Below, in pieces: positions 19,309 to 36,855 of a stretch of 64,000 bases of DNA. The position numbers and the translations under genes are program-made. Position 1 is the stretch's first letter. Every line of letters starts with the position of its first letter. Source of the stretch: Methylopila jiangsuensis (GTDB taxonomy: Bacteria > Pseudomonadota > Alphaproteobacteria > Rhizobiales > Methylopilaceae); assembly GCF_027922305.1 (NCBI RefSeq), contig NZ_BSFK01000005.1, positions 620,001 to 684,000 on the forward strand, in the 5' to 3' direction. Below the pieces are notes generated by a model. It did no database searches, was not told where the DNA came from, and saw only the letters and a list, made by a program, of their open reading frames with translations.

Positions 19309-21168
19309 ATGATCAACATCACCGACATCACCTGCCGCGTCGCCGGCCGCGTCCTGCTCGACAAGGCGAGCGCCTTCCTGCCCGAGGGCGCGCGCGTGGG
19401 CGTGGTCGGCCGCAACGGCACGGGCAAGACCACGCTGTTCAAAGTGCTGGCGAACGAACTCGCCCCCGACGACGGCGACGTCTCCATGCCGAAGGGCCTG
19501 CGCCTCGGGCGCGTGGCGCAGGAGGCGCCCTCCGGCCCCGAGGCGCTGATCGACGTGGTGCTCGCCGCCGACGTGGAGCGCGCGGCGCTGATGAAGGAAT
19601 CGGAGACCTGCACCGACCCGGACCGCATCTCCGACATCGTGACCCGGCTGATCGACATAGACGCCTATGAGGCCCCGGCGCGGGCGGCGCGCATCCTGTC
19701 CGGCCTCGGCTTCGACGACGAGGCGCAGGCCCGCCCCTGCTCCGACTTCTCCGGCGGCTGGCGCATGCGCGTGGCGCTGGCCGCCGTGCTGTTCTCCGAG
19801 CCGGACCTGCTGCTGCTGGACGAGCCCACCAACCATCTCGACCTCGAAGGCACGCTCTGGCTGCAGGACTATCTGGCGAAGTATCCGCGCACGGTCCTCG
19901 TCATCAGCCACGACCGCGACCTGCTGAACGCGTCGGTGGACCACATCCTCCACTTCGACAACGGCAAGCTGAACGTCTGGAAGGGCAATTACGACGCCTT
20001 CGACCGCATGCGCCGCGAGAAGCTGGCGCTGGACCAGAAGGCGGCCAAGGCCCAGGACGAGGAGCGCAAGCGCCTCGAGGCCTTCATCGCCCGCTTCAAG
20101 GCCAAGGCCTCCAAAGCCACGCAGGCCCAGTCCCGCATGAAGCGGCTCGCCAAGATGCAGCCCATCACCGCGGTGGTGGAGAGCAGCGTCGTGCCGTTCC
20201 GCATCCCCGACCCGGAGCGGGAGCTGGCGCCGCCGCTGGTGGCGCTCGACGGCGTGTCGGTGGGCTACGGCGACCGCACCATCCTGCACAAGCTGAGCCT
20301 GCGCATCGACCCCGACGACCGCATCGCCCTGCTCGGCTCCAACGGCAACGGCAAATCCACCTTCGCCAAGCTGCTGGCGGGCCGCCTCGCGCCGCAGGAA
20401 GGCCGGGTCAACAAGTCCGAGAAGATGCTGGCGGGCTTCTTCGCCCAGCACCAGGTCGAGGACCTGAACGTCGACCAGAGCCCCTACGACCACATCCGCG
20501 CCAAGATGCCCACCGCGAACGAGGCGCAGGTGCGCGCCAAGACGGCGCAGATCGGCTTTCCCGCCGACAAGGCCAACACCAAGGTCGCCAAGATGTCCGG
20601 CGGCGAGAAGGCCCGCCTCGCCTTCGGCCTCGCGGTGTTCCACGCGCCGCACCTGCTCATCCTCGACGAGCCCACCAACCATCTGGACATCGACAGCCGC
20701 GAGAGCCTCGCGCAGGCGCTGAACGAATTCCCCGGCGCGGTCATCCTCGTCAGCCACGACCGCCATCTGCTCGACGCCACCGCCGACCGGCTGTGGCTGG
20801 TGGGCGACGGCGGCGTGAAGGCCTTCGACGGCGATCTCGACGACTACCGCCGCTACATCCTGTCGGACGCGGCCAAGCCGAAGAAGGCCGGCAAGGGCTC
20901 GGGCAAGTCGTCGGAGCCCGCGCCGAAGCGCCTCGACGTGGGCGCGCTGAAGAAGAAGGTGACGCAGCTCGAGGAGCTGATGGCCTCCTGCCGCGCGGAG
21001 ATCGCCCGCATCGACGCCGAGCTCGAAGCCGGCGGCGGTTTTCCGGGCAAGCCCCAGAAGGCCGCGACGCTGGGCGCCAAGCGCGCCGAGTGCGAGCGCG
21101 CCATGGCGGAGGCCGAGGAGCAGTGGCTCGAGGCCAGCGCCTCGCTGGAAGAAGCCGCCGCCGCGTGA
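19309..21168 (+). CDS. ABC-F family ATPase
   Basis: A 619-residue soluble protein with two ABC ATPase domains and no membrane segments. Walker A motifs are GRNGTGKTTL and GSNGNGKSTF; each half has an LSGG-like signature (DFSGGWRMR, KMSGGEKAR) and a Walker B with the DEPTNHLD pattern. A charged linker joins them and a coiled-coil-like basic tail ends the protein. ABC-F proteins act on the ribosome, as translation factors or antibiotic protection factors; which applies here cannot be told from sequence. The ATG at 19309 has AAGGGG upstream. Its stop overlaps the next gene by GTGA. Confidence 0.9.
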   Translation: MINITDITCRVAGRVLLDKASAFLPEGARVGVVGRNGTGKTTLFKVLANELAPDDGDVSMPKGLRLGRVAQEAPSGPEALIDVVLAADVERAALMKESETCTDPDRISDIVTRLIDIDAYEAPARAARILSGLGFDDEAQARPCSDFSGGWRMRVALAAVLFSEPDLLLLDEPTNHLDLEGTLWLQDYLAKYPRTVLVISHDRDLLNASVDHILHFDNGKLNVWKGNYDAFDRMRREKLALDQKAAKAQDEERKRLEAFIARFKAKASKATQAQSRMKRLAKMQPITAVVESSVVPFRIPDPERELAPPLVALDGVSVGYGDRTILHKLSLRIDPDDRIALLGSNGNGKSTFAKLLAGRLAPQEGRVNKSEKMLAGFFAQHQVEDLNVDQSPYDHIRAKMPTANEAQVRAKTAQIGFPADKANTKVAKMSGGEKARLAFGLAVFHAPHLLILDEPTNHLDIDSRESLAQALNEFPGAVILVSHDRHLLDATADRLWLVGDGGVKAFDGDLDDYRRYILSDAAKPKKAGKGSGKSSEPAPKRLDVGALKKKVTQLEELMASCRAEIARIDAELEAGGGFPGKPQKAATLGAKRAECERAMAEAEEQWLEASASLEEAAAA

Positions 21169-22409
21169 CCACGCGGCCGCTCATACTCAAGCACCTGTCG
21201 CAGCCGCGACCGTGGACCGCCGCGGCCGTGATGCTGGCGGCCGCCCTCGCCTGCGCCGCGCTCACGGTCGCGGACGGCGGCTTCGGCGATCGGAGCTGGG
21301 CGCTGGTGGCGGGGGTGGTGTTCGGGATAGCGCTGCAGCGGGGCGAGCTGTCGCTGGTGCGCGCCTGGCGCGACCTGCTGATGCTGAACGACGGCCGGCA
21401 GCTTCTGGGCTTCCTCGCCGCGCTGGCGGTGGCCGCCGCGCTGACGCTGGGCGGGCTCGCGGGCCTCGGCCTGTCGCCGCCCGCCAACGCCCGCATCGGA
21501 CCGGTGGACTGGCTGCTGCCGCTCGCCGCCTTCGTGTTCGGCGTGGGCTCGGTGGTGGCCCGCGGCGGCGTGATGGTGCATCTGCGCCGCCTGAGCGAAG
21601 GCTCGCTGGTGGCGGCGCCGGCGCTGATCGCCACGTTTGTCGGCTTCATGCTGGGGCTGATGAGCTGGCCGTGGAGCTGGCGCGTCGCCATCGAGCACGC
21701 GCCCCGGCCGTGGATCCCGGCCCTGCTCGGCCTCGATCTCTGGACCACGCTTGCGCTGGAGCTCGCCCTGGTCGCCGCGCTCGCCGCGCTGCTGTGGCGC
21801 CGCCGGCCCCGGCATGAGCCGGACCAGCGCCCGCTTGCGGTGCGGATTCTGGTGGAGCCCTGGCCGGCGGTCTGGGCCGGCGCGCTGCTGGGCGCGCTGG
21901 TGGCGGCCAGCTACGCCGCGGGCGAACCGCTCGGCCTGATCGCCGAATGCGCCACCGTGGCCCGCGCCCTCGCCACCGCGCTCGGCCTGACGCCCCCGCA
22001 TCTGCCGGGCCTCGACGACGGCGTCGGCGGGCTGGTGATCCCGCTGATCGCCCGCATCGAGGCGAGCGAGCACGTGGTCATCGTCTTCGGCTTCCTGTTC
22101 GGCGCCTTCGCCTGCGCGGTCGCCTCCGGCCGGTTCTCGCTCACCGGCTTCGACCGGCGCGAGGCGGCGGAGATGGCGGTCGGCGGGCTGATGCTCGGCT
22201 GGGGCGCCATGACGGCGCTCGGCGCGGTCACCGGCGAGGCCATCGCCGGCGTGGCGGTCGGAGCGCTGTCCGGCTGGGTCTTCCTCGCCTTCGCCTCCCT
22301 CGGCGTCATCGCGGCCCTGAAGCTCGACCCGCGCCAGTCCGTGACCGCCCCGTCGCCCGTGCCCACGAAGGAACTGCCCGAAGACCAGAAAGACCCGCTC
22401 GGCGGCTGA
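21165..22409 (+). CDS. YeeE/YedE-family membrane protein, cysteine-poor variant
   Basis: A 414-residue polytopic protein with about ten hydrophobic segments. It resembles the YeeE/YedE (sulphur transport, DUF395) family in GIALQRGELSLVRAWRDLL (residues 54-72) and in the second repeat (GGLMLGWGAMTALGAVTG, ending at 357). Family members import thiosulfate, or are proposed selenium transporters in selenium-using bacteria. The family's relay cysteines appear replaced here: ELSL at 61-64 where FCF is usual, ARGG at 132-135 where GGC is usual, and GAVTG at 353-357 where GCT is usual. The GTG start overlaps the ABC-F stop. It faces selC. Confidence 0.72.
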   Translation: MTTRPLILKHLSQPRPWTAAAVMLAAALACAALTVADGGFGDRSWALVAGVVFGIALQRGELSLVRAWRDLLMLNDGRQLLGFLAALAVAAALTLGGLAGLGLSPPANARIGPVDWLLPLAAFVFGVGSVVARGGVMVHLRRLSEGSLVAAPALIATFVGFMLGLMSWPWSWRVAIEHAPRPWIPALLGLDLWTTLALELALVAALAALLWRRRPRHEPDQRPLAVRILVEPWPAVWAGALLGALVAASYAAGEPLGLIAECATVARALATALGLTPPHLPGLDDGVGGLVIPLIARIEASEHVVIVFGFLFGAFACAVASGRFSLTGFDRREAAEMAVGGLMLGWGAMTALGAVTGEAIAGVAVGALSGWVFLAFASLGVIAALKLDPRQSVTAPSPVPTKELPEDQKDPLGG

Positions 22410-22487: not shown

Positions 22488-22583
22488 TGGTGGAAGAGAG
22501 TGGGAGTCGAACCCACCGAAGACCGTCTGACGGCCCCCTCCGGCTTTGAAGGCCGGCCGCCCCACCGGGGACGCTTCTCCTCC
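22488..22583 (-). tRNA. selC: tRNA-Sec(TCA)
   Basis: A 96-nt tRNA with the hallmarks of selenocysteine tRNA: anticodon TCA (loop CTTCAAA between CCGGC and GCCGG), an 8-bp acceptor stem (GGAGGAGA with TCTCTTCC, one G-U pair), a long variable arm and the GGTTCGACTCC T-loop. The discriminator is A and CCA is encoded at 22488-22490. It decodes in-frame UGA with SelB. It lies 13 nt downstream of selB on the same strand, so it is probably co-transcribed. Confidence 0.97.
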
Positions 22584-22596
22584 GAACGCGATCGGC

Positions 22597-24549
22597 TCAC
22601 GCCTCCTGTTCCGTCACGGGCGCGCGGCGGAACAGGTCGCGGCGGCGGCTGTTGATCCGCCGTTCGTCGCCCCGGCGGATGGTGACGCCGTGACGATCGA
22701 AGAACTCGAGGATCTGTATGGCGACCTTGCGGCCGTTGTCGAGCCTGTCGCGGAACGCGGCGGCGGTGAGGACGCCGCGCGGGTCCGCGGCGGCCGCGGC
22801 GCAGGCGACCTCCACCAGCTCCGACGTCACCTCCCGCGGGAAGAAATGGTCGTGGGCGATCTCGTCCGCCTGCCCCAGCCGGCTCACCAGCTTCAGCGCG
22901 CGGCGGATGTCGGCCTCGTCCTCGCCCAGTTCGTGGGCGAGATCGCGCACCCGCGGCGGGCGGAACCGCGTGGCGCCCCCAAGCCGCGGACCGATCTCCG
23001 CCCACAGCGCCTCGTCGGCGGGCGCGAGCCGCGCCGTGTGCTCGGGCCGCCGGACCCAGGCGCCGTCCACCGCGATGGCGCCTTCGCGCTGCAGCCTGGC
23101 CAGCGCGCCGAGGAAGGCCGGCGCCGCGAGCCGCGGCTCCACCATCAGCCGCAGGCGTTCGGCGCCCACGCCCTGAAGATCGGGACTGTCGGCGTGAAAG
23201 ACGGCGAGCCGGGCGGCGAGATCGGCGGCGAAAGCGTCCCAGACGTCGCGCGTCACCACCGCCGCCGCGCCCCTGGGACCGGCGAGGCGGACCAGATCGA
23301 GCGTCTCCGCCAGACGCGCGGCGGCGCCCGGCCCGAGATTGCGGTCGCGGGCGAAACCGTCGAGATCGACGGTCCCCGGCGGGACCGCCAGCAGCTCCGC
23401 CACCGCCTCCGCCGGGTCGTCCTTCGCCAGCGCCGCGAGCTGCGCCAGCCGTTCGGGCGAACGGCGGCGGCGGGCGGGAGCGCGGAGATCGAGAATGCGG
23501 CCGCCCGCGACGGTGCGCTGGCCGGAGGTGTCGCGCAGCACGAAACGGTCGAGCGCCGCCGCGGCCAGCGGCTGCTCCAGCACCAGTTGCGCGCGCACCT
23601 CCGCGCCGGGCGCGATGTGGTCGCCGTCGAGCGGGACCACCCGCGCCGCGATCTCGGCCGCGCCGTGATGCAGCCGCGCCGGCGTCCATGTGGCCATGGG
23701 CCGGGGCTCGCCCGAAAGCAGCCGGAGCGAAACGTCGATGCGCTCCGTGGGCGCGTGCAGCTCCGCGGCGCAGACCACGTCGCCGCGCCGGATGGCGTCC
23801 TTCGCGACGCCCGGCCCCGCAAGGTTCAGCGCGCAGCGCTCGCCGGGCCGGCCCTCCTCCGCGGCGCGGTTCTGGGCGTGGATGGCGCGCACCCGCGCCG
23901 TCAGGCCGGACGGCGACACGATCACCGGATCGCCCACCCGGACCACGCCGTCGCGCACCGCGCCCGTCACCACCGTGCCCGCGCCCTGCAGCGTGAAGCA
24001 GCGGTCGACCGCGAGCCGGAACCGGCCCTCCGCCGGCCGCTCCCGCGTCTGCGCGCGCAGGGCGTCGAGCTTTTCGGACAAGGCGGCCACGCCGTCGCCC
24101 GTGACGGCGGAGACGGGCAGGATGTCCGCGCCTTCAAGCCCGGTTCCCCCCAGCAGGGCCACGACTTCGCTTTCGGCCTCGGCGAGGCGCGCGGCGTCCA
24201 CCAGATCGGTTTTGGTCAGCGCCACCAGCCCCCGGCGCACGCCGAGCAGGTCGACGATGGCGAGATGCTCCCGCGTCTGGGGCATGGGGCCGTCGTCGGC
24301 GGCCACCACCAGCAGCACGAGGTCGATCCCGCTCGCGCCCGCCAGCATGTTGCGCACGAAGCGTTCGTGGCCCGGCACGTCCACGAAGCCGAGCACTTGG
24401 CCGTCGGCGCGCGGCGAATAGGCGAAGCCAAGGTCGATGGAGATGCCGCGGGCCTTCTCCTCCTTCAGCCGGTCGGTCTCGACGCCGGTCAGCGCCTTCA
24501 CCAGCGCCGATTTGCCATGGTCGATGTGTCCGGCGGTGCCGACGATCAC
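22597..24549 (-). CDS. selB: Selenocysteine-specific translation elongation factor SelB
   Basis: A 650-residue GTPase that delivers Sec-tRNA to ribosomes stalled at a UGA followed by a SECIS hairpin. G1 (GHIDHGKS) is at residues 7-14; DVPGHE and TKTD follow. Two beta-barrel domains come next, and the C-terminal ~200 residues form the winged-helix repeats that bind SECIS RNA. The GTG start overlaps the Sel1-repeat gene stop (GTGA). The selC gene follows 13 nt downstream. Its probable client is fdoG, 6 kb upstream on the same strand. Confidence 0.96.
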
Positions 24550-25382
24550 GCCGCCGGCTCCTCGGCCGCGGGCAGCGGCCGGGCGGCGATGGCCTCGGCC
24601 TTCTCCGCGTCCTCCTCCGACAGCAGAGACCGCACCGGGCCGAGGAACGGCGCGGCCAGCGCGCCGCCGCCGGCGTCCGCCCGCAGCAGCCACACGTAAG
24701 CCGCCCGGCTGTCCTGCTCCACGCCCTGCCCCATGTGCAGCGCCGCGCCCAGCATGGCCTGTCCGTCCGGCTCGCCCCGGCGGGCGGCCTCGGACCACCA
24801 GCGCGCGGCCTCGACCGGATCGCGCTCCATGCCGAGCGCGTTGTGGGCGATGAGGCCGAGCCGCGTCATGGCGCTGGCCACCCCCTGCGCCGCCGCCTCC
24901 AGCGCCCAGCGCCGCGCCGCCACCGGGTCGGCGGCGACAGAACCCTGCCCCTCCAGCAGCATCCAGCTCAGCATGTCCTGCGCCGGGCCGTCGCCCTGCT
25001 CCGCCGCCGCCCGATAGAGATCGAGCGCGGCCGCGTCGTCCTGCGCCACGCCCTCGCCCTTGAAGTGCAGCGCCGCCAGATTGCGCTGGCCGAGCGGATC
25101 GCCGGCCTCGGCGGCCCGTTCCAGCCAGTTGGCCGCCTGCGTGGGATCGCGCTCCACCCCGAGCCCCTCGGCGTAGCAGGCGCCGAGGTTGGCCTGGGCG
25201 CGGGCGACGCCGTCCTCCGCCAGCGGCCGCCACAGCGCGACCGCCGTGGCGTGGTCGCCCATCTCCGCGGCGTCATAGGCCGCCTCCATCTGGTCGGCCA
25301 CGTCGGGCTCGTCCGCGTCCCTGTCTTCCGCGCCCGGCGCGCCGAGGCGCGACAGCACGCGGCCGATCCAGTCCCCCATCAT
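24546..25382 (-). CDS. Sel1-repeat (SLR/TPR-like) protein between selA and selB
   Basis: A 278-residue protein built almost wholly of Sel1-like repeats: about six ~36-residue units from residue ~40 to ~255, each with the A.YxxG.GVxxDxxxAxxW pattern (for example [20 protein letters not shown]). No signal peptide or membrane segment is visible, so it should be cytoplasmic. Such repeats bind other proteins. It overlaps selA (ATGA) and selB (GTGA), so its synthesis is coupled to both. The family name Sel1 is unrelated to selenium, but the position suggests a scaffold for selenocysteine synthesis or delivery; that is inference. Confidence 0.85.
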
Positions 25383-26803
25383 GCTGCGGCCTCCGCGCGG
25401 GCGCGGGCGAGCTCGGCGAGACCGGCCTCAAGCGCCGCCGCGTCGTCCATTCCGCGCAGATCGAAGATCAGCCGCTCGTCGGCGATGCGCCCGATCACGG
25501 GCGCGGCGAGCGCCCGGAACGCCGCCGCAAGCTCCAGCAGAGCGGAGCCGGACCGGCGCGCGCCCAAGGGCGCGAGCGTCAGCCCCGCGCTCGGGATCGA
25601 CGCCAGCGGCAGCGCGCCGGAGCCGATCTGGCTGTGGAGCTCCGCCACCTCCACCGCGACGTCCGGGCCGACGGCGGCCTCGAAGGCGGGCTTCAGACGC
25701 GCGGCCTGCTCCTTCAGCCTCGCCGCCGGCCGGGTCAGCAGCATCAGCGTCGGCAGCCGCTCGGCCAGCCGGTCGGGGTCGCGGTAAAGCTTCAGCGTAG
25801 CCTCCAGCGCCGCGAGCCGCAGCTTGTCCAGCCGCAGCGCGCGTTTGAGCGGATTCTTCGCCAGCCGCCGGATCAGATCGGCCCGGCCGACCGCGAGCCC
25901 CGCCTGCGGCCCGCCCAGAAGCTTGTCGCCCGAGAAGGTGACCACATCCGCCCCGTCCGCCACCGCCTGCCGCACCGTGCGCTCCGGCTGCAGGCCATAG
26001 GCCGCGAGGTCCACCAGCACGCCGGAGCCGAGGTCGTCCATCAGCGGCAGGCCGCGGGCGCGGGCGAGCGGCGCCAGCTCCCGCGCCGTCACCTCTTTGG
26101 TGAAGCCCTCGATGCGGTAGTTGGACGGATGCACTTTCATCAGCAGGCCGGTGGCCGGGACGATGGCGTCTTCGTAGTCCGCGAGATGGGTGCGGTTGGT
26201 GGTTCCCACCTCCCGCAGCACGCAGCCGGCGCGCGCCATGATGGCGGGCATGCGGAACGCGCCGCCGATCTCGATCAGCTCGCCGCGGGAGACCACCGCC
26301 TCGCGGCCCTCCGCGAGCGCGTTCAATGTGAGCAGCACGGCGGCGGCGTTGTTGTTGACCGCGACCGCGTCCTCCGCGCCGGTCAGCTCCCGCAGCAGGC
26401 CGCGCACATGATCGTCGCGCTCGCCGCGTCGGCCGGTTGCCACGTCGAACTCCAGCGCGGTGGGCGAGCGCATGGCCATGGTGACGGCGGCGATCGCCTC
26501 CTCCGCCAGAAGCGCCCGGCCGAGGTTGGTGTGCAGCACCGTGCCGGTGAGGTTCAGCACGCGGCGCTGGCTCGGCGTCTCCGACGCCTCCAGCGCGGCG
26601 AGCGCGACCTGCGCCAGCCGATCCGCTGATATGTCCGCCGCCGCCCCGGCGCGCCAGGCGGCGCGGGCCTCCTCCAGCCGGGCGCGCACGCTCGCCACCG
26701 TCGCGGTCCGGCCGAAGCGCTCCTCGGCCACGCGGGCGGCGTCGGCGGCGAGCACCCGGTCGACGGCGGGAAGCGGAGGGCGGGACGAAGGCTGATCGTT
26801 CAT
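25379..26803 (-). CDS. selA: L-seryl-tRNA(Sec) selenium transferase
   Basis: A 474-residue PLP enzyme that converts Ser-tRNA(Sec) to Sec-tRNA(Sec) using selenophosphate. Diagnostic stretches are [44 protein letters not shown] and the PLP-lysine site [14 protein letters not shown] prefer the ATG at 26803 (MNDQPSS); another Met is two codons upstream, and neither has a strong ribosome site. selD, needed to make selenophosphate, is not in the window. The gene lies 61 nt after fdhE and overlaps the Sel1-repeat gene. Confidence 0.96.
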
Positions 26804-26864
26804 GGGCATCCGACGCAGGGCGCGGCGCGGAGCGGCTGTCGTGCGCCCCGCAGCTTCAGGCCGA

Positions 26865-27827
26865 TTAATACCCAAGCAGATATGGGTTGAAACCCGCCCG
26901 CGCCCAGCCGGCCTCCCGCACCTTCAGATCGAGCCCGAGCGAGGCCACGTCGTCGGCCACAGGGTCAATCGACGGCTGAAGGTGCTGGTGGAAGATTTTG
27001 ACGTAAAGCCCGCAGACGTCGCAGGTTTCGGCCTTGATCGGCGTCTCGTCCTCGCGCGCCTTCACCATGGCGCCGCCGGCCAGGGTTTCGCCGTCCTCGC
27101 TCAGCGCATGGTAGCTGATCTTCTCGGTGGACTCGCAGGCCACGCATTTCACCCGCACGTGGTTCCACAGCGTTCCGCACAGCGCGCAGGAGACGTAGCG
27201 CACGCCGTGCACCGGCCCCCAGCCCACCACGAGGCTGACCGAAGGCGGCCCGCCGCAGCAGGGACAGACGCCGAGGCCCACCGGCTGGAGCCTGTCCACA
27301 TCCAGCGCGGCGGCGAGGCGGGCGAAATGGGCCTGAAGCGCTGCGGCGGCGAACACATGCTCCGCCAGCGCGTCCGCGCCCGCCGCGCTGTCCAGCGCGT
27401 CGTTCAGCACCGCCTCCCGGCCCTCACGACCGCTGTCGCGCAACCGGCGCACGGCCTCCGCCGCGGGCTCCGGCATGGGGATCGCTTCAGCGTGGTCGAG
27501 CAGCCGCTCGAACGCAGCATGGACGCCGTCGTCCATGCGCGTGCGGGCGCGGTCAAGCGGCGGCATGGCGAAATCCTGCGCGCGCGCCAGCAGGTCCGGA
27601 TCGGGCGCCGGCGCAGGCGGCAGTTCGGCGACGATTGCGTGCTGGGCGCGGCTCAACGCGCCCAGGAAGCGCAGATAGGCCTCCAGCGGATGACCGGGCG
27701 CGAGCGCCTCGAACCGCTCCGCCCGGTCGAGGAACAGCCGCGACGGGTCCGGCAGGACGGCGAAAACCGGCTGCGCCACGCCGCCGATGTCGGACGGCGT
27801 CGGGGCGAGTGAGGTGGGACCGGCCAT
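26865..27827 (-). CDS. fdhE: Formate dehydrogenase accessory protein FdhE
   Basis: A 320-residue cytoplasmic maturation factor for respiratory formate dehydrogenase. Four CxxC pairs in the C-terminal half (CPCCGG, CALCG, CVAC, CDVCG) form the rubredoxin-like metal sites typical of FdhE. The start at 27827 has GGAG 7 nt upstream; another Met two codons earlier is less well placed. It stands between the fdo structural genes and selA, linking enzyme maturation to selenocysteine supply. Confidence 0.95.
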
Positions 27828-28036
27828 GCGCATGCTCCATTCAGCCGCACGCGGCGGCGTCTCGCTTCAGCGGCGGCGGGGTCCGGCCGAAGCCGGCGCC
27901 CGCATTCCCGCCCTCGTCATATGGCGTCGGGCCTCGCCCCCGTCCAACGCCGCCAGCGCGCCTGACCGGCGAGGCCGACGCCGCGAAACGGCCGCACAGA
28001 TTGATGGGCTTTAACCGCGCTCCGCTTGGCGCGCGC

Positions 28037-28084
28037 ATCTGGCATGCCAACTTGGCCGTACCGCGCGATCATCTGGCATGCCAA
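28037..28084. repeat. Two copies of the palindrome-containing motif ATCTGGCATGCCAA
   Basis: The identical 14-mer occurs at 28037-28050 and 28071-28084, 34 bp apart, both in the same orientation. Its core TGGCATGCCA is a perfect palindrome. The copies lie about 210-260 bp upstream of fdhE and 40-90 bp upstream of the 49-codon gene, so they look like paired operators in the divergent promoter region (GntR-type dimer sites have this form). The rest of the 296-nt gap holds nothing I recognise. Confidence 0.55.
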
Positions 28085-28123
28085 ATACCAACCCAGAGAA
28101 TACTAGACTAAAGGATGATCCCG

Positions 28124-28273
28124 ATGCCCACCACGATCGTTCATGCCGCCCCCGCCGAAGCCACCGGTTTCGGCGCCCTGGTCGCCCGCCTGTTCACCGA
28201 ACTGACCGCGTTCTTCGAAGAGTCCGGCCGCGCCCTGCACCGCGCCCATCGCGACTACCCGTTCGGCCTCTGA
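28124..28273 (+). CDS. Small protein of 49 residues, unknown function
   Basis: I do not recognise this protein. The ATG at 28124 has AAAGGA at 28110-28115, 8 nt away, a good ribosome site. The product runs MPTTIVHAAPAEATGFGALV and ends HRDYPFGL; the middle (ALVARLFTELTAFFEE) would form an amphipathic helix. There is no signal peptide and no Cys. A strong hairpin follows 54 nt after the stop. It is the only plus-strand gene inside the formate dehydrogenase/selenocysteine block, and its promoter region holds two copies of a palindrome, so it may be regulated separately. Confidence 0.6.
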   Translation: MPTTIVHAAPAEATGFGALVARLFTELTAFFEESGRALHRAHRDYPFGL

Positions 28274-28327
28274 TCCGATCGGCGCGTCTTCACGCGGGGG
28301 CTCGCCGCCCTTTCGCGTCCAATCGAA

Positions 28328-28362
28328 AACAGGGCCGTCCGCTGCGCGCGGGCGGCCCTGTT
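28328..28362. terminator. Terminator between the 49-residue gene and fdoI
   Basis: A 10-bp perfect stem (AACAGGGCCG at 28328-28337, CGGCCCTGTT at 28353-28362) with a GC-rich loop. It is symmetric enough to end both converging transcripts. Confidence 0.65.
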
Positions 28363-28389
28363 CCGTTTCGCAACCGACGCCGGCCGGCG

Positions 28390-29055
28390 TCAGTGGTCGC
28401 CCTCGTCCTTCACCTCCGACCGCAGCCACTTGCGGTGGTGCCGCCAGGCCCAGCCGCCGGTGACCCGCCCCTGCGTCATGGCCCGCACGGTGCCCTTGAC
28501 CCAGATGCCGGCGTAGATATGGACGATGATGATCAGGATCGCCCCGATCGCCGCCAGAGAGTGGGTAAGCGCCGCGAGCCTGTTGACGTTGATCGAGACC
28601 AGCCCGTGGAAATACTGGTCCCAGATCACCAGCCCCGAGGCGAGCAGCACGATCAGCAGCAGCGACGTGCCCCAGAACACCATCTTCTGACCGGCGTTGT
28701 ATTTGCCGAGCTCCGGAAGATGCTCTTCCTCGCCCTTCACCACGTCGCCGATCTGGGTCATCCACCTGGTGTCGTCGCGGTTCCAGAGGTTGAGCCGCCA
28801 GAACCGGACGAACAGCACCGAGAAGCTCGCCACCAGCACCACGCCGATCCAGGGGTGGAAGGCGCGGGTGTTGGCGCCGCCGCCGAAGAGGTCGGTGAGG
28901 AAGAACAGGCTGGGGTGGAACAGCGCCAGCCCGCTCAAGGTGAGCAGCACGAAGCAGATCGCCGTGATCCAGTGGTTGACGCGGGCGGAAGCGGAGTAGC
29001 GCTTCACCTCCGTCCGCTCCACGATCAGCGGCCGGCGTTCGATCTCGATCGCCAT
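28390..29055 (-). CDS. fdoI: Formate dehydrogenase cytochrome b subunit (gamma)
   Basis: A 221-residue integral membrane cytochrome b556 that anchors the enzyme and passes electrons to quinone. Four hydrophobic segments are visible. Haem-ligand histidines are expected in VNHWITA, FHPWIG and the later LTHSLAAIGAI and IIVHIYAGIW segments. The start ATG shares one base with the fdoH stop (TGATG at 29055), so translation is coupled. It is the last gene of the fdoGHI operon. Confidence 0.95.
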   Translation of the reverse strand: MAIEIERRPLIVERTEVKRYSASARVNHWITAICFVLLTLSGLALFHPSLFFLTDLFGGGANTRAFHPWIGVVLVASFSVLFVRFWRLNLWNRDDTRWMTQIGDVVKGEEEHLPELGKYNAGQKMVFWGTSLLLIVLLASGLVIWDQYFHGLVSINVNRLAALTHSLAAIGAILIIIVHIYAGIWVKGTVRAMTQGRVTGGWAWRHHRKWLRSEVKDEGDH

Positions 29056-29993
29056 CAGAGCGTCCTCGTCTCGGGCGTAGGCTCGGCGCCGTTCGCCTCT
29101 TCCGCCAGATCCGCCGCGTTGGCCTCGTCCGTGTCGGTGACGCGGTTGGGGCCGACGATGGTGTGGTGGAAGAAGGCCCCCACGGCCGCGAAGGCGATCG
29201 CCCCCAGCGCCAGCAGCTTCGCCCCGCCCTTCCAGGCCGAGACCAGCGGGCTGATCTGCGGGTCCTTGGGCAGGCCGGCGTAGATCTCCGGCTTGTCCAG
29301 GTGATGCAGCACGTACATCACATGGGTGCCGCCGACGCCCTGGGGATCATAGAGCCCGGCGTTGGCGAAGCCGCGGGACTTGAGGTCCACGATCCGCTGG
29401 GCCGCCTGATCCTTCATGTCCTCCTTGGTGCCGAACATGATCGCCGCCGTGGGGCAGGCCTTGGCGCAGGCCGGGCCCATGCCGACCGAGACCCGGTCGG
29501 AGCACAGCGTGCACTTGTAGGCCTTGCGGTCCACCTGGCTGATGCGCGGAATGTTGAAGGGGCAGCCCTTCACGCAATAGGCGCAGCCGATGCAGTTCTC
29601 CGACACGAAATCCACGATGCCGTTGGTGTACTGCACGATCGCGCCCGGCGAGGGGCAGGCCTTCAGGCAGCCCGGATCGGCGCAATGCATGCAGCCGTCC
29701 TTGCGGATCAGCCACTCGAAATTGCCGTTGTCCGGGTTGTCCCATTCGCTGAAGCGCATCAGCGTCCAGCTGTTGGGGGTGAGGTCGTGCGGGTTGTCGT
29801 AGACGCCCGTGTTGACCCCGACCTCCTCCTTCAGGTTGTTCCACTCCAGGCAGGCCGACTGGCACGCCTTGCAGCCGATGCATTTCGAGACGTCGATCAG
29901 CTTGGCCACCTCGAGGCCGGTCGACCGCACGGTCGGCGGCGTCGAGGTGGAGGCCGAGCGGCGCTTGATGTCGAGGGACTGGTAGGAAGCCAT
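29055..29993 (-). CDS. fdoH: Formate dehydrogenase iron-sulphur subunit (beta)
   Basis: A 312-residue electron-transfer subunit. Four ferredoxin-like Cys clusters are present: [11 protein letters not shown] near residue 40, [24 protein letters not shown] and [10 protein letters not shown]-terminal hydrophobic helix ([16 protein letters not shown]) anchors it on the periplasmic side, as in FdnH/FdoH. It starts 14 nt after fdoG with a GAGGG upstream. Electrons pass from the selenocysteine/molybdenum site in FdoG to haem in FdoI. Confidence 0.96.
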
Positions 29994-30007
29994 CTCTCAG
30001 CCCTCCC

Positions 30008-33000
30008 TCACGCGACCGCCGGAGCCGAGGTCGGCTCGATGTTGACCAGAAACGCCTTGTATTCCGGCGTCTCGATGTTCGCGTCGCCCACGAAGGGGGT
30101 CAGCGAATTCGGGTTGTGACCCTTCTTCGTCTTGCCGATGAAGCCCCAGTGCTGGGGAATGCCCACCACATGGACCGGCCGACCGTCCACCATCAGCGGC
30201 TTGATGCGCTTGGTCACCACCGCCTTGGCCTTGAGCGAGCCGCGGTTGGACCACACCCGGACCCAGCCGCCCTTCTCGATGCCTTTCTCCTTCGCGAGCT
30301 CTTCCGAAATCTCCACGAAGAACTCCGGCTGCAGCGCCGCGTTGACCCAGACGTGCTTGGTCCACTGATGGAAATGCTCCGTCAGGCGGTAGCTGGTGCC
30401 CACGTAGGGGAACTGGTCCGGAGACCCGAGGGCTTCGAGATCGGCCTTGAAGATGCGCGCGGCGGGATTGCCGCGGATCTTGGGGTTGATCACGTTGGCC
30501 ACCGGCGACTCGAACGGCTCGTAATGGGACGGGAACGGGCCGTCCCGCATCATGCCGCGGGTGAACAGCCGCGCCACGCCCTCCGGGTTCATGATGAAGG
30601 GGCCGACCGCCTGCTCGGGCTTCACCGTCGGGCCGTAGTCCGGCACGTCGTAACCCGTCCAGCGCTCGCCCGACCACCACACCAGCTTGCGGCTCTCGTC
30701 CCACGGCTTGCCGGACACGTCCGACGAGGCGCGGTTGTAGAGAATCCGGCGGTTGACCGGCCACGCCCAGGCCCAGCGGGGCGCGAGCCCCGTGTCGCCG
30801 GGATCGTAGGTGTCGCGCCGCGAGGTCTGGTTGCCGGCTTCGGTGAAGCAGCCGGCGTAGATCCAGCAGAACGAGGCCGTGGAGCCGTCGTCGCGCAGCT
30901 GCGCGAAGGTGTCCACCTGCTTGCCCTTCTGGACCAGCACCTTGGTCGGGTCGGTCGGGTCGAACACGTCCGACAGCGCCTGGCCGTTCATCTCCTTCGC
31001 AAGCTCCTCCGCCGAAGGCTCCTCCGGCTGGGCGTAAGGCCAGCGCAGATTCACGATCGGATCGGGGAAAGCGCCGCCCTCCTTGAGGTACAGCTCCTTC
31101 AGCCGGAGATGCAGCCCCGCCATGATGAAGACGTCGGACCGCGCTTCCGCGGGCGGCGACACAGCCGCGTTGTGCCACTGCAGCCAGCGGCCGGAGTTCA
31201 CGATCGAGCCCTCGTCCTCGGCGAAGCAGCTGGTGGGCAGCTGGAACACCTCGGTCTGGATGTCCGCCGTCTTCACGTCGTTGAACTCGCCGTGGTTCTC
31301 CCAGAACCGCGAGGTCTCGGTGTCGAGCGGGTCCATGGTCACCAGCCATTTCAGCTTGGCGAGGCCCGCGGTGATCTTGCCCCGGTTGGGGAAGGTCATC
31401 AGCGGGTTGAAGCCCTGGCAGAAATAGCCGGTGACCTTGCCCTGGTTCATCAGCTCGAACGTGCGCAGCACGTCGTAGGTGACGTCCAGCTTGGGCAGCC
31501 AGTCGTAGGCCCAGTCGTTCTCCGCCGTCGCCCTGTCGCCCCACATGGACTTCTGGAACGAGACGAAGAACTTCTTGTAGTTCTGCCAGAAGCTGGTCTG
31601 TCCGGGACGCAGCGGCTTGAAGCCGCGGGTCGACATGTAGGTCCCGAAGTCCTTCTCCTTCTCCGTGGGGAGATTGAGATAGCCGGGCAGCATGTTGGAC
31701 AGCAGGCCGAGGTCCGTCAGGCCCTGGATGTTGGAGTGGCCGCGGAGCGCGTTCATGCCGCCGCCGCGCACGCCGATGTTGCCCAGCAGAAGCTGAACCA
31801 TCGCCATGCCGCGGATGTTCTGCGCGCCCTTGGAATGCTGCGTCCAGCCGAGCGCGTACATCGACGTCATGGTCTTGGTCGGCGACGAACACTCCGAGAT
31901 CATCTCGCAGACCTTCAGGAACTTGTCCCGAGGCGATCCGCAGACGCGCTCCACCAGCTCCGGCGTGTAGATGGCGAAGTGCTGCTTCATGAGCTGGAAG
32001 ACGCTGCGCGGGTCCGTCATGGTCTCGTCGACCCTGGCGAAGCCCTGCTCGTCCATCTGGTAGTCCCAGGACGAGCGGTCGTAGTCGCGCTTCTCTTCGT
32101 TGTAGCCCGTGAACAGACCCTCGGACCAGCCGAACTCCGGCTTCACCAGGAAGGTGGCGTTGGTGTAGGCCTTGACGTAGTCCTTCTGGATTTTGTCGTT
32201 GGACAACAGATAGTTGATGACGCCGCCCAGGAAGGCGATGTCCGAGCCGGGCCGGATCGGGCAATAGAAATCGGCGACCGACGCCGTGCGCGTGAAGCGC
32301 GGATCGACCACGATCAGCTTGGCGCCGCGATGCGCCTTGGCCTCGACCACCCATTTGAAGCCGCACGGGTGCGCTTCAGCCGCGTTGCCGCCCATCACGA
32401 CCACGAGGTCGGCGTGCTTGATGTCGCCCCATGCGTTGGTCATGGCGCCGCGACCGAATGTTGGGGCCAGACTGGCCACCGTCGGTCCGTGTCAGACGCG
32501 CGCCTGGTTGTCGAACGGCAGGGTCCCGAGCGACCGCATGACCTTGTAGGTCAGCGTGCCGGTTTCATTGGTTGTGGCGGACGCCGCCAGGAAACCCACC
32601 GATGTCCAGCGGTTGACCGTGAGGCCGTCCTTGTTGGTGGTCTGGAAGTTCGCGTCGCGATCGTCCTTCATCAGACGCGCGATGCGGTCCAGCGCGAAGT
32701 CCCACGACACCCGCTCGAATGTGTCCGAGCCCGGCTTGCGGTGCATCGGATACTTCAGCCGGGTCTCCGCATGCACGAAGTCCAGCAGCGCTGCGCCCTT
32801 GGGGCAGAGCGTGCCGCGGTTGGTGGGATGGTCGGGATCGCCCTCCACGTGCATCAGCGCGGAGCGCGTGTTCTTGGAGCGGTCGCCGAGGCTGTACATG
32901 ATGACGCCGCAGGCCACCGAGCAGTAGGGGCAGATGTTCCGGGTCTCCGTCATGCGGGCCAGCTTGAACGGCCGCACCGCCTGGGCCATGGCCTGTTCGG

Positions 33001-33094
33001 CGCCGCCGAACCCCATCGCCCCAAGCGTGGTCCCGGCGACGCCCACACCGGCCGCTTTCAGAAAGCCGCGCCGTGAGACTTCACCGATCGTCAT
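30008..33094 (-). CDS. fdoG: Selenocysteine-containing formate dehydrogenase catalytic subunit (UGA read as Sec201)
   Basis: A 1028-residue molybdopterin enzyme that oxidises formate to CO2. The frame is interrupted once, by TGA at 32492-32494 (codon 201), flanked by DNQARV and HGPTVASLAP; this is the selenocysteine position in E. coli FdnG/FdoG. The frame is open on both sides with no shift, and selA, selB and selC are nearby, so this is one selenoprotein and not a broken gene. The N terminus has a Tat signal (SRRGFLKAAG) and a [4Fe-4S] site (CPYCSVACG, then GTLCPKGA). AAGGAGGA at 33104-33111 sets the start at 33094. A SECIS-like hairpin follows the UGA. Confidence 0.96.
32463..32480 (-). 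promoter_or_regulatory. Bacterial SECIS-like hairpin of fdoG
   Basis: Exactly 11 nt after the UGA, the mRNA reads GG-U-GGCCA-GUC-UGGCC-CC. It folds into a 7-bp stem with one bulged U and a GUC apical loop. The spacing, the bulged U and the G-U-containing loop are the features of the E. coli fdhF element that SelB recognises. Confidence 0.8.
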
Positions 33095-33288: not shown

Positions 33289-33558
33289 GTGATCGGCGAA
33301 TCCGCTGCCACGCTCGACCTCAGGGGCCTGCGCTGCCCGCTGCCCGTGCTGCGCGTCCGCAAGGCGCTGGCCGGACTGGCGCCCGGCGAGCGGATCTTCG
33401 CGCGCGTCGACGACCCGCTTGCAGGCGTCGACATCCCCCACTTCCTGCGGGAGACGGGGCATACGCTGGTCACGACCGAAACCGACGGCGGGGAATTCCT
33501 GTTCGTAATCGAGAAAGCCGCGCCCAAGCCGCTTGAAAGCGCGCCTTCGCCCCTCTAG
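33289..33558 (+). CDS. TusA/SirA-family sulphur-carrier-like protein
   Basis: An 89-residue protein with the TusA fold signature LRGLRCPLPVLRVRKAL; the active Cys is residue 16 in CPLP. TusA proteins carry persulphide sulphur; relatives (YedF) occur in selenium metabolism and others help FdhD mature formate dehydrogenase. It is divergent from fdoG across a 194-nt AT-rich region, so it may deliver sulphur or selenium to this enzyme; that is inference. The start is GTG with GGAGAAGG at 33273-33280; an ATG at 33281 in another frame stops after three codons. Confidence 0.8.
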   Translation: MIGESAATLDLRGLRCPLPVLRVRKALAGLAPGERIFARVDDPLAGVDIPHFLRETGHTLVTTETDGGEFLFVIEKAAPKPLESAPSPL

Positions 33559-33583: not shown

Positions 33584-33660
33584 GGGCGCGTAGCTCAGTT
33601 GGTTAGAGCAACTGACTTTTAATCAGTAGGTCCTGGGTTCGAGTCCCAGCGCGCTCACCA
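33584..33660 (+). tRNA. tRNA-Lys(TTT)
   Basis: A 77-nt cloverleaf: acceptor GGGCGCG/CGCGCTC with one G-U pair, anticodon TTT at 33618-33620 between ACTGA and TCAGT, T-loop GGTTCGAGTCC, and encoded CCA at the 3' end. Confidence 0.97.
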
Positions 33661-33735: not shown

Positions 33736-36700
33736 CTATTCCGCCGCCTGCTTTTTCAGCGGGCGCCGGCGCAGCACCTCGGCGAGGAAGCGGCCGGTGT
33801 GGCTCGCATTCGCGCGGGCGATCTGCTCGGGCGTTCCGACCGCCACCACCATGCCGCCGCCGTCGCCGCCTTCCGGGCCCATGTCCACGATCCAGTCCGC
33901 GGTCTTGATGACCTCGAGATTGTGCTCGATCACCGCCACCGTGTTGCCCTGGTCCACCAGCTCGTGCAGCACCTCCAGCAGCTTGGCCACGTCGTGGAAA
34001 TGCAGGCCCGTGGTCGGTTCGTCGAGGATGTAGAGCGTGCGGCCCGTGGAGCGGCGGGACAGCTCCTTGGAGAGCTTCACCCGCTGGGCCTCGCCGCCGG
34101 ACAGCGTGGTGGCCGGCTGGCCCACCTTGACGTAGCCGAGCCCCACCCGCGCCAGCGTCTCCATCTTCTCCCGGATGGAGGGCACCGCCTTGAAGAACTC
34201 CGCCGCCTCGTCGACGGTCATGTCCAGCACGTCGGCGATGGATTTGCCGCGGTACAGCACCTCCAGCGTCTCGCGGTCGTAGCGCTTGCCCTTGCACACG
34301 TCGCAGGTGACGTAGACGTCCGGCAGGAAGTGCATCTCGATCTTGATGACGCCGTCGCCCTGGCAGGCCTCGCAGCGCCCGCCCTTGACGTTGAACGAGA
34401 ACCGCCCCGGCTGGTAGCCGCGCGCCTTGGACTCCGGCAGCCCCGCGAACCAGTCCCGGATCGGCGTGAAGGCGCCGATGTAGGTGGCGGGGTTGGAGCG
34501 CGGCGTGCGTCCGATCGGCGACTGGTCGATGTCGATCACCTTGTCGATCGCCTCGAACCCCTCGATCCGCTCGTGCGCGCCGGGGTTCTCGTTGGCGCCG
34601 TTCAGCTTGCGCGCCGCCGCCTTGAACACGGTGTCGATCAGCAGCGTGGACTTGCCGCCGCCGGACACGCCGGTGACGCAGGTGAAGCAGCCGAGCGGAA
34701 TCTCGGCGGTCACGTCCTTCAGGTTGTTGGCGCGGGCGCCGACCACCTTGAGCGTCCTCTTTTTATCGAACGGGCGGCGCTTCGGCGGCGTCGGCACCAT
34801 CAGTTCGCCGGTGAGGTACTTGCCAGTGAGGCTCGCCGGGTCGGCCATCACCTGGTCGGGCGTCCCCTGCGCGATGATGCGGCCGCCATGGACGCCGGCG
34901 CCCGGCCCCACGTCCACCACGTAATCGGCGAGCCGGATGGCGTCCTCGTCGTGCTCCACCACGATCACGGTGTTGCCGAGGTCGCGCAGCCGCTCCAGCG
35001 TGCCGAGCAGCCGCTCGTTGTCGCGCTGGTGCAGGCCGATGGAGGGCTCGTCCAGCACGTAGAGCACGCCGGTCAGGCCCGACCCGATCTGGCTCGCGAG
35101 CCGGATGCGCTGGCTCTCGCCGCCGGAGAGCGAGCCGGAATTGCGCGCGAGCGTCAGGTAATCGAGCCCCACATCCACCAGGAAGCGCAGCCGGTCGCGG
35201 ATCTCCTTCAGGATGCGGTAGGCGATCTCGTTCTGCTTCGGCGTCAGATGCCGCGGGAGGTCCTCGAACCAGGCGTGCGCCGCCCGCACCGACAGCCGCG
35301 CCGCCGCGCCGATGTGCCGGTCCGAGACCCGGACGGCCAGCGCCTCGGGCTTCAGCCGGTAGCCCTCGCAGACGAGGCACGGCACGTCGGACATGTAGCG
35401 GCCGATCTCCTCGCGGGACCAGTCGCTCTCCGTCTCCTTGTAGCGCCGCTCCAGATTGCGCACGACGCCCTCGAAGGTCTTCACCGTGTCGTAGGAGCGC
35501 AGACCGTCGTCATAGACGAAGCGCACCTTCTCCGAACCGGAGCCGTAGAGGATGACGTTCTTCGCCTTCTCCGGCAGGTCGGCCCAGGGGACGGTGAGCG
35601 CGAAGCCGTAATGCTTGGCGAGCGCGTCCAGCGTCTGGATGTAATAGGGCGAGGTGGAGCGCGCCCAGGGCGCGATGGCGCCCTTGCGCAGGGTGGCGCC
35701 GCCGTCCGGGACCACCAGATTGGGATCAACCGCGAGCTCCGCGCCGAGGCCGTCGCAGGCCGGGCAGGCGCCGAAGGGGTTGTTGAACGAGAACAGCCGC
35801 GGCTCGATCTCGGCGATGGTGAAGCCGGACACCGGACAGGCGAACTTCTCCGAGAAGGTCAGCCGCTTCGGGTTCCCGTCCCCGTCGGTCTGGTCGGCGA
35901 ATTCGGCGATGGCGATGCCGTCCGCGAGCCCCAGCGCCTGCTCCAGGCTGTCGGCGAGGCGGCTCGCGATGTCGCCGCGGATCACCACCCGATCCACCAC
36001 CACGTCGATGTCGTGCTTCAGCTTCTTGTCGAGCGTGGGCGCGTCGGCGATCTCGTAGAAGGCGCCGTCCACCTTCAGCCGCTGGTAGCCCTTCTTCTGG
36101 AACTCGGCGATCTCCTTGCGGTACTCGCCCTTGCGGCCGCGCACCACCGGCGCGAGCAGATAGAGCCGCGAGCCCTCGGGCAGCGCCAGCAGCCGGTCCA
36201 CCATCTGGCTGACCGTCTGGCTTTCGATCGGCAGGCCGGTGGCCGGCGAATAGGGGATGCCCACCCGCGCCCACAGCAGGCGCATGTAATCGTAGATTTC
36301 CGTGACGGTGCCCACGGTGGAGCGCGGATTCTTCGACGTGGTCTTCTGCTCGATGGAGATCGCCGGCGACAGGCCGTCGATCTGGTCCACGTCCGGCTTC
36401 TGCATCATCTCCAGGAACTGGCGGGCGTAGGCCGACAGGCTCTCCACGTAGCGGCGCTGGCCCTCCGCATAGATGGTGTCGAAGGCGAGCGACGACTTGC
36501 CCGAGCCCGACAGCCCGGTGAACACCACCAGCCGGTCGCGGGGAATGTCGAGATCGACGTTCTTGAGGTTGTGCTCGCGGGCGCCCCGCACCGAGATCAT
36601 CCGGCCGTCCCGCACGGACAACCGCGCCTCGGCCGCGGCGTCGAACGCGGCCTCAAGCGCGGCGGGAGTCTTGGCCCTGGCGCCGGCGGAGTCCGTACTT

Positions 36701-36855
36701 TTAACGCTGGCGGGCGCAGCGTTCACGGCGCTGGCGGGCGCCTTGGCCTTGGCGACGTCGGAACGCGCGGGCTTGGGCGACGCCGGGGCGCGCTCGGCCT
36801 TGGGGCCGGCCTTCGGCGTCCGGCCGGCGCCGGTCCGTGAACGTTCTTTGGTCAT
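33736..36855 (-). CDS. uvrA: Excinuclease ABC subunit A
   Basis: A 1039-residue DNA-damage sensor of nucleotide excision repair. Two ABC ATPase modules are present (Walker [13 protein letters not shown] and [11 protein letters not shown]; signatures [14 protein letters not shown] and [14 protein letters not shown]). Both zinc modules are present: CPACDGLG, and CEACQGDG with CDVCKGKRY. An ~85-residue Ala/Pro/Lys-rich extension precedes the usual start ([14 protein letters not shown]); no strong ribosome site supports the first ATG, so the true start could be internal. A LexA box lies 109 bp upstream. Confidence 0.96.

Follow-up and report, generated by a model that had tools for sequence, protein, structure and literature searches.

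How a genetic-code extension comes to lie beside its probable client enzyme, and whether the two arrived together as a mobile unit, is the question raised by a cluster of selenocysteine (Sec) genes in Methylopila jiangsuensis. The cluster occupies positions 22488-33094, minus strand, of the window, by which we mean the whole 64,000-nucleotide stretch analysed here (positions 620,001 to 684,000 of contig NZ_BSFK01000005.1). A preliminary description of this DNA had proposed a near-complete Sec island which, ending near a tRNA-Lys gene and being bordered by uvrA and an ABC-F gene, might have moved as a unit. Judging from sequence comparison with relatives, we consider it highly probable that this is a complete, apparently working Sec cluster with a client of the formate dehydrogenase N or O type (FDH-N/FDH-O), which would have been in place before the genus diversified and inherited vertically thereafter, with two losses that kept the Sel1-repeat gene (sel1). 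The cluster consists of the following features:

30008..33094, minus strand: fdoG, formate dehydrogenase alpha subunit (TIGR01553, 1449 bits; PF10518 twin-arginine translocation (Tat) signal), with an in-frame UGA, predicted to encode Sec, at codon 201
32439..32497, minus strand: SECIS_3 (Sec insertion sequence) element beginning on the UGA codon (Rfam RF01989, 83.7 bits, gathering threshold 63, E 2.1e-18)
29055..29993, minus strand: fdoH, iron-sulfur beta subunit (TIGR01582, 459.8 bits)
28390..29055, minus strand: fdoI, cytochrome b gamma subunit (TIGR01583, 188.5 bits, cutoff 115.85)
26865..27833, minus strand: fdhE, formate dehydrogenase maturation factor (TIGR01562, 262.6 bits)
about 25379..26809, minus strand: selA, Sec synthase (TIGR00474, 568.8 bits; presumed start codon, the frame being open from 26875)
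24546..25382, minus strand: sel1, Sel1-repeat protein gene (PF08238, 5 repeats; ortholog family A1)
22597..24549, minus strand: selB, Sec-specific elongation factor (TIGR00475, 413 bits)
22488..22583, minus strand: selC, tRNA-Sec with anticodon UCA (ARAGORN; Rfam RF01852, 73.5 bits, gathering threshold 47)

Gene set, order and single orientation are those given in the preliminary description, as is the spacing of 13 nt between selB and selC; the selB stop precedes selC, so that the latter is not nested in the former. By coordinates and frames, four-base overlaps join the selA stop to the sel1 start (ATGA) and sel1 to the start of selB (GTGA). The enzyme has the hallmarks of FDH-N/FDH-O, namely a Tat-dependent alpha subunit, an iron-sulfur beta subunit with a membrane segment, a cytochrome b gamma subunit and FdhE. 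The order fdoGHI-fdhE-selA-(sel1)-selB-selC is the alphaproteobacterial fdo-sel order, and the protein genes follow it in loci L297 and L298 as well.

Is the UGA of fdoG read as Sec? It lies at 32494-32492, counting codons from the ATG at 33094, is aligned with the X (modified residue) of Escherichia coli formate dehydrogenase N (1kqf) and is immediately followed by the SECIS element. The only two genes missing from the locus were both located elsewhere in the same genome: selD at G000:C16:863854 (427 bits, cutoff 125), which completes the selA, selB, selC and selD set of the bacterial Sec-decoding trait, and fdhD at C5:798765 (196.5 bits), with the closest FDH-like match about 1.4 kb off. Because the SECIS, this full set and the matching Sec site occur together, we infer that the UGA is decoded as Sec. 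The earlier picture of a decoding unit packed beside its client is supported. The genome contains one SECIS_3 match in total; with FdoG as query, one of its eight matches has an internal stop, and this is the fdoG of the window itself (the searches covered SECIS_3 elements and FdoG relatives). A gene for a molybdopterin oxidoreductase at 51750-53846 of the window (plus strand) has weak similarity to FdoG and no in-frame stop. By analogy with the respective protein families, the tRNA encoded by selC would be converted to Sec-tRNA-Sec through SerRS, SelA and SelD, and SelB would bring it to the fdoG UGA via the adjacent SECIS; FdhE and FdhD would mature the formate dehydrogenase, which would be exported by Tat, and electrons from formate would pass through FdoH and FdoI to quinone.

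In itself, the cluster is of an ordinary, already described type. The fdoGHI-selABC(D) clusters of Alphaproteobacteria were reported by Mukai 2021 (PMC8124441), and in the accessible portions of that article they are of the same kind as the one in the window: the Figure 3 legend names a Sel1-like protein and gives, for 'Methylophila', a tRNA-Sec with an A before the CCA, as found here, and a new stop before selC, called not essential, is noted for Methylopila, which the selB stop 13 nt before selC matches. Relative to those portions, the present analysis additionally maps the neighbours, the departures of selC among members of a single genus and the sel1 that remained once the cluster was lost. 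The plasmid pSymA of Sinorhizobium meliloti (NC_003037.1) has the same fdoGHI-fdhE-selA-sel1-selB order, with selD further on, but differs from the window in being plasmid-borne and in its sequences (FdoG 71% and SelB 57% identical); a transposon lies there between selAB and selCD, according to the same portions of PMC8124441. Roseomonas p1-AD2 and a Terrarubrum plasmid also share the order, including the Sel1 gene, with selD nearby. Among the named loci, which are the best 80 of 563 relatives, fdoG, fdoH, fdoI, fdhE, selA and selB follow one another on one strand in 26, many others ending at contig ends, and a Sel1 gene was seen in nine. Zhang et al. 2006 (PMC1794560, accessible text) described selA-selB-selC clustered with one fdhA and horizontally transferred; that transfer crosses classes and orders, whereas here, within one genus, descent looks vertical with losses.

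The distribution of the cluster was determined in 18 genomes of the family, 13 of them from the window's genus (individual relatives are designated by G numbers). SelB at 58% identity or more was found in 12 of the 18 (as two pieces in G008), and the same 12 possess an FdoG containing one TGA (E of 1e-60 or lower) and a tRNA-Sec of at least 65.7 bits. All 18 genomes also have weaker SelB matches, of at most 48% identity, which were taken as EF-Tu and other GTPases. Likewise, all 18 exceed the tRNA-Sec gathering threshold of 47, the best matches of the six negatives (48.8-50.9 bits) being taken as other tRNAs because the second matches of the positive genomes reach the same level. The cluster is thus present in 11 of the 13 genomes of the genus, its genes being in pieces in G008, and is lacking from G006 and G009 of the genus as well as from G001, G002, G003 and G005. 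G008 has a further fdoG copy, again with a TGA in frame, that is accompanied by fdoH, fdoI and fdhE (C1:2031863-2034941, L295); the pieces of this FdoG are 63-70% like the FdoG of the window, and the frames look broken in this assembly.

Phylogenies were compared for the cluster and its surroundings. G008 was omitted from the UvrA, concatenated, flank-protein, SelB, cluster-protein, sel1 and moeA trees, and G001, G002, G003 and G005 from the flank-protein concatenations and the sel1 and moeA trees. In the SelB tree (93 rows) the window's genus forms one clade of 10 rows. A tree built from six proteins of the cluster (2940 columns) divides this genus into two groups, one joining the window with G016, G007, G012 and G013 (support 100) and the other joining G010 with G017, G011, G014 and G015 (97); the placement of G010 with the G017 group recurs in the SelB tree (85). 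The same inner groups are recovered by the flank-protein tree (6470 columns). When it is not rooted on G004, a genome from another genus of the family, cluster and flank trees agree, and we therefore read the history within the genus as vertical: the cluster looks ancestral to it and inherited by descent. Beyond the genus the picture is different, since SelB of G004 groups with Bosea (99) and forcing it together with the window's genus is rejected (approximately unbiased (AU) test, p 0.009); the cluster is thus transferred from one genus to another, although the window's genus has not been a recent recipient. In addition, SelB relatives with an E value of at most 1e-80 are carried by 108 plasmid records. 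The suggestion that the cluster may have moved as a unit thus holds in the sense that such units do move, but the mobile-island reading is valid only at this larger, between-genera scale.

Whether the borders of the cluster tell the same story was judged from the genes around it:

33289..33558, plus strand: tusA-family sulfurtransferase gene (PF01206, 78.8 bits), between fdoG and tRNA-Lys
33584..33660, plus strand: tRNA-Lys(UUU), close to the cluster in 10 of the 11 cluster-bearing members of the genus
33736..36855, minus strand: uvrA, directly adjacent in the window genome only
21165..22409, plus strand: PF04143 (YeeE/YedE-like) membrane protein gene, abutting selC (PF04143, 131 bits; NF033796, 63.8 bits, cutoff 350)
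28124..28273, plus strand: small conserved open reading frame (ORF) of 49 codons between fdoI and fdhE, divergent from fdhE, with a similar small protein in six relatives

The tusA-family gene, the PF04143 gene and the small ORF had not been mentioned in the preliminary description. All 10 other cluster-bearing members of the genus have tusA before fdoG on the opposite strand and moeA 0.6-5.6 kb downstream of selB; nine have an orf1 relative between selB and moeA, and nine have tRNA-Lys(UUU) near tusA (in reversed orientation in G016), the exception being G010, where cluster and tRNA-Lys are on different contigs. Although tRNA-Lys and tusA have stayed beside the cluster in the window genome, its moeA (C5:612122) lies about 29 kb from selC, and the secretion-gene flank maps to C5:129309. 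As for uvrA, its distance from selB is 24-25 kb in G014, G015 and G017; in the remaining relatives it is more distant or located on a different contig. In none of the 17 relatives' uvrA regions (about 20 kb each, mostly on the 3' side of uvrA) did the ABC-F gene or the PF04143 gene give a match above 50 bits, and for this reason no empty site of the ABC-F/uvrA type exists there: the clean presence/absence between these two genes that had been suggested as a check was not seen, and a recent insertion between them is rejected by the gene neighbourhoods of the relatives. The described borders are real in the window genome, but direct adjacency to uvrA and ABC-F is a feature of this genome, and the uvrA, ABC-F and PF04143 borders arose in it by rearrangement. 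At the ancestral site the cluster would have been flanked by tRNA-Lys(UUU) and tusA at one end and by moeA downstream at the other, with vertical descent afterwards; in the window genome, a rearrangement then placed uvrA and the ABC-F and PF04143 genes beside it.

We consider it very improbable, then, that the window lineage acquired the cluster as a mobile genomic island which integrated as a whole at tRNA-Lys, with the ABC-F gene on one side and uvrA on the other. The recurrent proximity of tRNA-Lys, the two genus members without the cluster and the existence of plasmid copies would fit such an event, but the trees of the cluster are consistent with descent within the genus, it is the 5' side of tRNA-Lys that faces the cluster, and both cluster-less species keep sel1 (G006 also the small ORF), which look like scars of loss. 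The tRNA was rejected as an attachment site because the window yielded no duplicate of the tRNA-Lys 3' end; the direct repeats detected between 19000 and 37500 are weak and dispersed. No integrase matched in 10 further flank frames, a subset of the flank genes that includes PhoX and of which six are without a Pfam match; the genes nearest the cluster borders are tusA, uvrA, PF04143 and ABC-F. Nor was a clearly foreign block seen in the G+C profile, which is about 0.64-0.67 across fdoGHI, 0.73-0.76 across the sel genes and 0.67-0.74 in most flanking bins.

What became of the locus in the two genus members without the cluster? It reads tRNA-Lys, tusA, small ORF, sel1, moeA in G006 and tusA, sel1, moeA, without the small ORF, in G009, the flanks of which are collinear with the cluster locus of G010. 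Between tusA and moeA, neither genome gave a match to fdo, fdhE, selA or selB, a result that concerns this locus and, for selA, this site only. The flank-protein tree pairs G009 with G010 (Shimodaira-Hasegawa-like approximate likelihood ratio support 100) and rejects a clade of G006 and G009 (AU p 0.012). The same pair is recovered by the sel1 tree (96/94) and the moeA tree (97/96), both genes being also part of the flank-protein data. The simplest reading is that G006 and G009 probably lost the cluster separately, both losses sparing sel1; fdoGHI, fdhE, selB, selC and, at this site, selA would have disappeared while tusA, sel1 and moeA were kept. The cluster can serve as a natural experiment: close relatives with and without the trait show how one genus loses a genetic-code extension and which member of the operon remains afterwards, and this allows a cheap test of the role of Sel1.

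Several points weigh against this history. The tree of UvrA alone joins G009 with G010 at just 74/67, and an earlier concatenation with untrimmed frames, since superseded by the 6470-column flank-protein tree, did not reject G006 with G009 (AU p 0.097). Rooted on G004, the flank-protein tree places G009 and G010 outside both groups (99), a position that the cluster-protein data reject for G010 (AU p 0.019); this root is 26% filled and has a long branch. The retained sel1 could be in slow decay or could serve merely as a leader for moeA expression. Finally, if G006, G009 and G010 were one group, a single loss in their ancestor followed by a regain in G010 is conceivable. The UvrA (77/90) and moeA (75/72) trees do weakly unite the three, and the G010 cluster proteins join the G017 group, but such a course of events seems unlikely to us. 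The sel1 in the middle of the G010 cluster is sister to that of G009, and an import would therefore have required insertion on both sides of the resident sel1, in the usual order; the moeA of G010 is likewise sister to that of G009; G006 keeps the small ORF that sits between fdoI and fdhE in G010; and descent, too, predicts this position for the G010 cluster when the root is placed next to the group of the window.

On the reading of two separate losses, why did sel1 survive? It is intact in both G006 and G009, which differ from each other at nonsynonymous and synonymous sites by dN 0.213 and dS 0.75. Over all 28 pairs, pN/pS is 0.33-0.64, and the value of 0.39 for G006-G009 is like that of Sec users; only aligned codons were counted in these comparisons, the sel1 frames of G013 and G009 having been started too far upstream, and the pairs with G013 are rough. 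Among 397 genomes of the order, with up to six candidates scored per genome, a Sel1 ortholog of at least 265 bits was found in 19. All but two of these have a sel context: 12 are family members with the gene in the sel cluster, and the five others all have it beside selA and/or selB, the remaining two being G006 and G009. Six weaker matches (187-207 bits) have no selA or selB in their 1.5 kb flanks (one being cut by a contig end) and were taken as paralogs.

The preference for sel clusters could mean that Sel1 is a true factor of Sec decoding or FDH-O assembly that survived in G006 and G009 by accident. We find this doubtful: both cluster-less genus members retained it, probably after separate losses, their copies are intact and as constrained as those of Sec users, and many sel clusters do without it, as seen from its count among the best 80 loci. 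That both cluster-less species kept an intact, constrained sel1 suggests a task for the Sel1 protein outside Sec decoding; and because these two species retained tusA, sel1 and moeA together, Sel1 is in all likelihood no dedicated Sec factor. The protein probably takes part in a process that outlasts Sec, perhaps the handling of molybdoenzymes or their cofactor with MoeA. Put more specifically, and tentatively, Sel1 would be a molybdoenzyme-maturation partner, with MoeA/TusA, that rides in the Sec cluster and is selected for after cluster loss, probably in two independent cases. No function of the protein is stated in the accessible portions of PMC8124441 or of the other literature searched, where we likewise found no published account of a sel1 outliving its Sec cluster, which is a small point.

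FdhT and FdhU of Campylobacter are a selenium uptake and delivery pair, and the PF04143 and TusA-family genes on either side of the cluster might be thought to belong to it in the same capacity. NF033796, the YedE/FdhT model, matches the PF04143 protein, tusA adjoins the cluster wherever it occurs in the genus, and YedE is linked with selenium genes in the accessible part of PMC5322559. Yet such a pair is, we think, quite unlikely here: 63.8 bits is far under the cutoff of 350, neither the 80 named loci nor those carrying the cluster in 11 relatives gave a match to the PF04143 gene, and tusA persists in both Sec-losing species. The PF04143 protein was consequently rejected as an FdhT/YedE selenium transporter, on account of its score and of not being a conserved neighbour, and its gene is probably not part of the Sec system.

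The 49-codon ORF, which has no Pfam match and is present in G006, a relative without Sec genes, is preceded by a further feature:

28074..28090, plus strand: TGGYATGCCAMATACCA motif 5' of the small ORF and of fdhE, a possible operator (one match in the window, 0.09 expected)

Exact matches to TGGYATGCCAMATACCA occur in 11 of 323 loci, all of them corresponding to this position in the window genome or in one of six relatives. A second copy of TGGCATGCCAA lies at 28040-28050 of the window. A sigma-70-like scan gave one promoter-like site 5' of fdoG (33206-33177, minus strand; 0.4 expected), and a terminator-like scan remained at chance level (5 found, 5.0 expected). The tRNA-Thr called by ARAGORN within selB (23530-23615, minus strand) is absent from the Rfam gathering matches and was taken as a probable artefact.

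The position of selC is less stable than that of the protein genes. It is found elsewhere than behind selB in six of the 12 positive genomes (G008, G010, G011, G014, G015 and G017; L289-L294), these displaced copies having one or two extra bases, and is nested in selB in G004. When the displaced selC of G011 and that of G010 were each queried against the other five, no stretch in common beyond about 110 nt was found. Departures of this kind are already known: in the accessible portions of PMC8124441, selC of Roseomonas is located elsewhere. Between selB and moeA, a SelD-like domain occurs in three genomes, G012 (L216), G007 (L218) and G013 (L146). That of G012 (TIGR00476, 277 bits) is the end of an 821-residue frame between orf1 and moeA (L216, 2789-5254), the front of which is oxidoreductase-like, and may represent a fusion.

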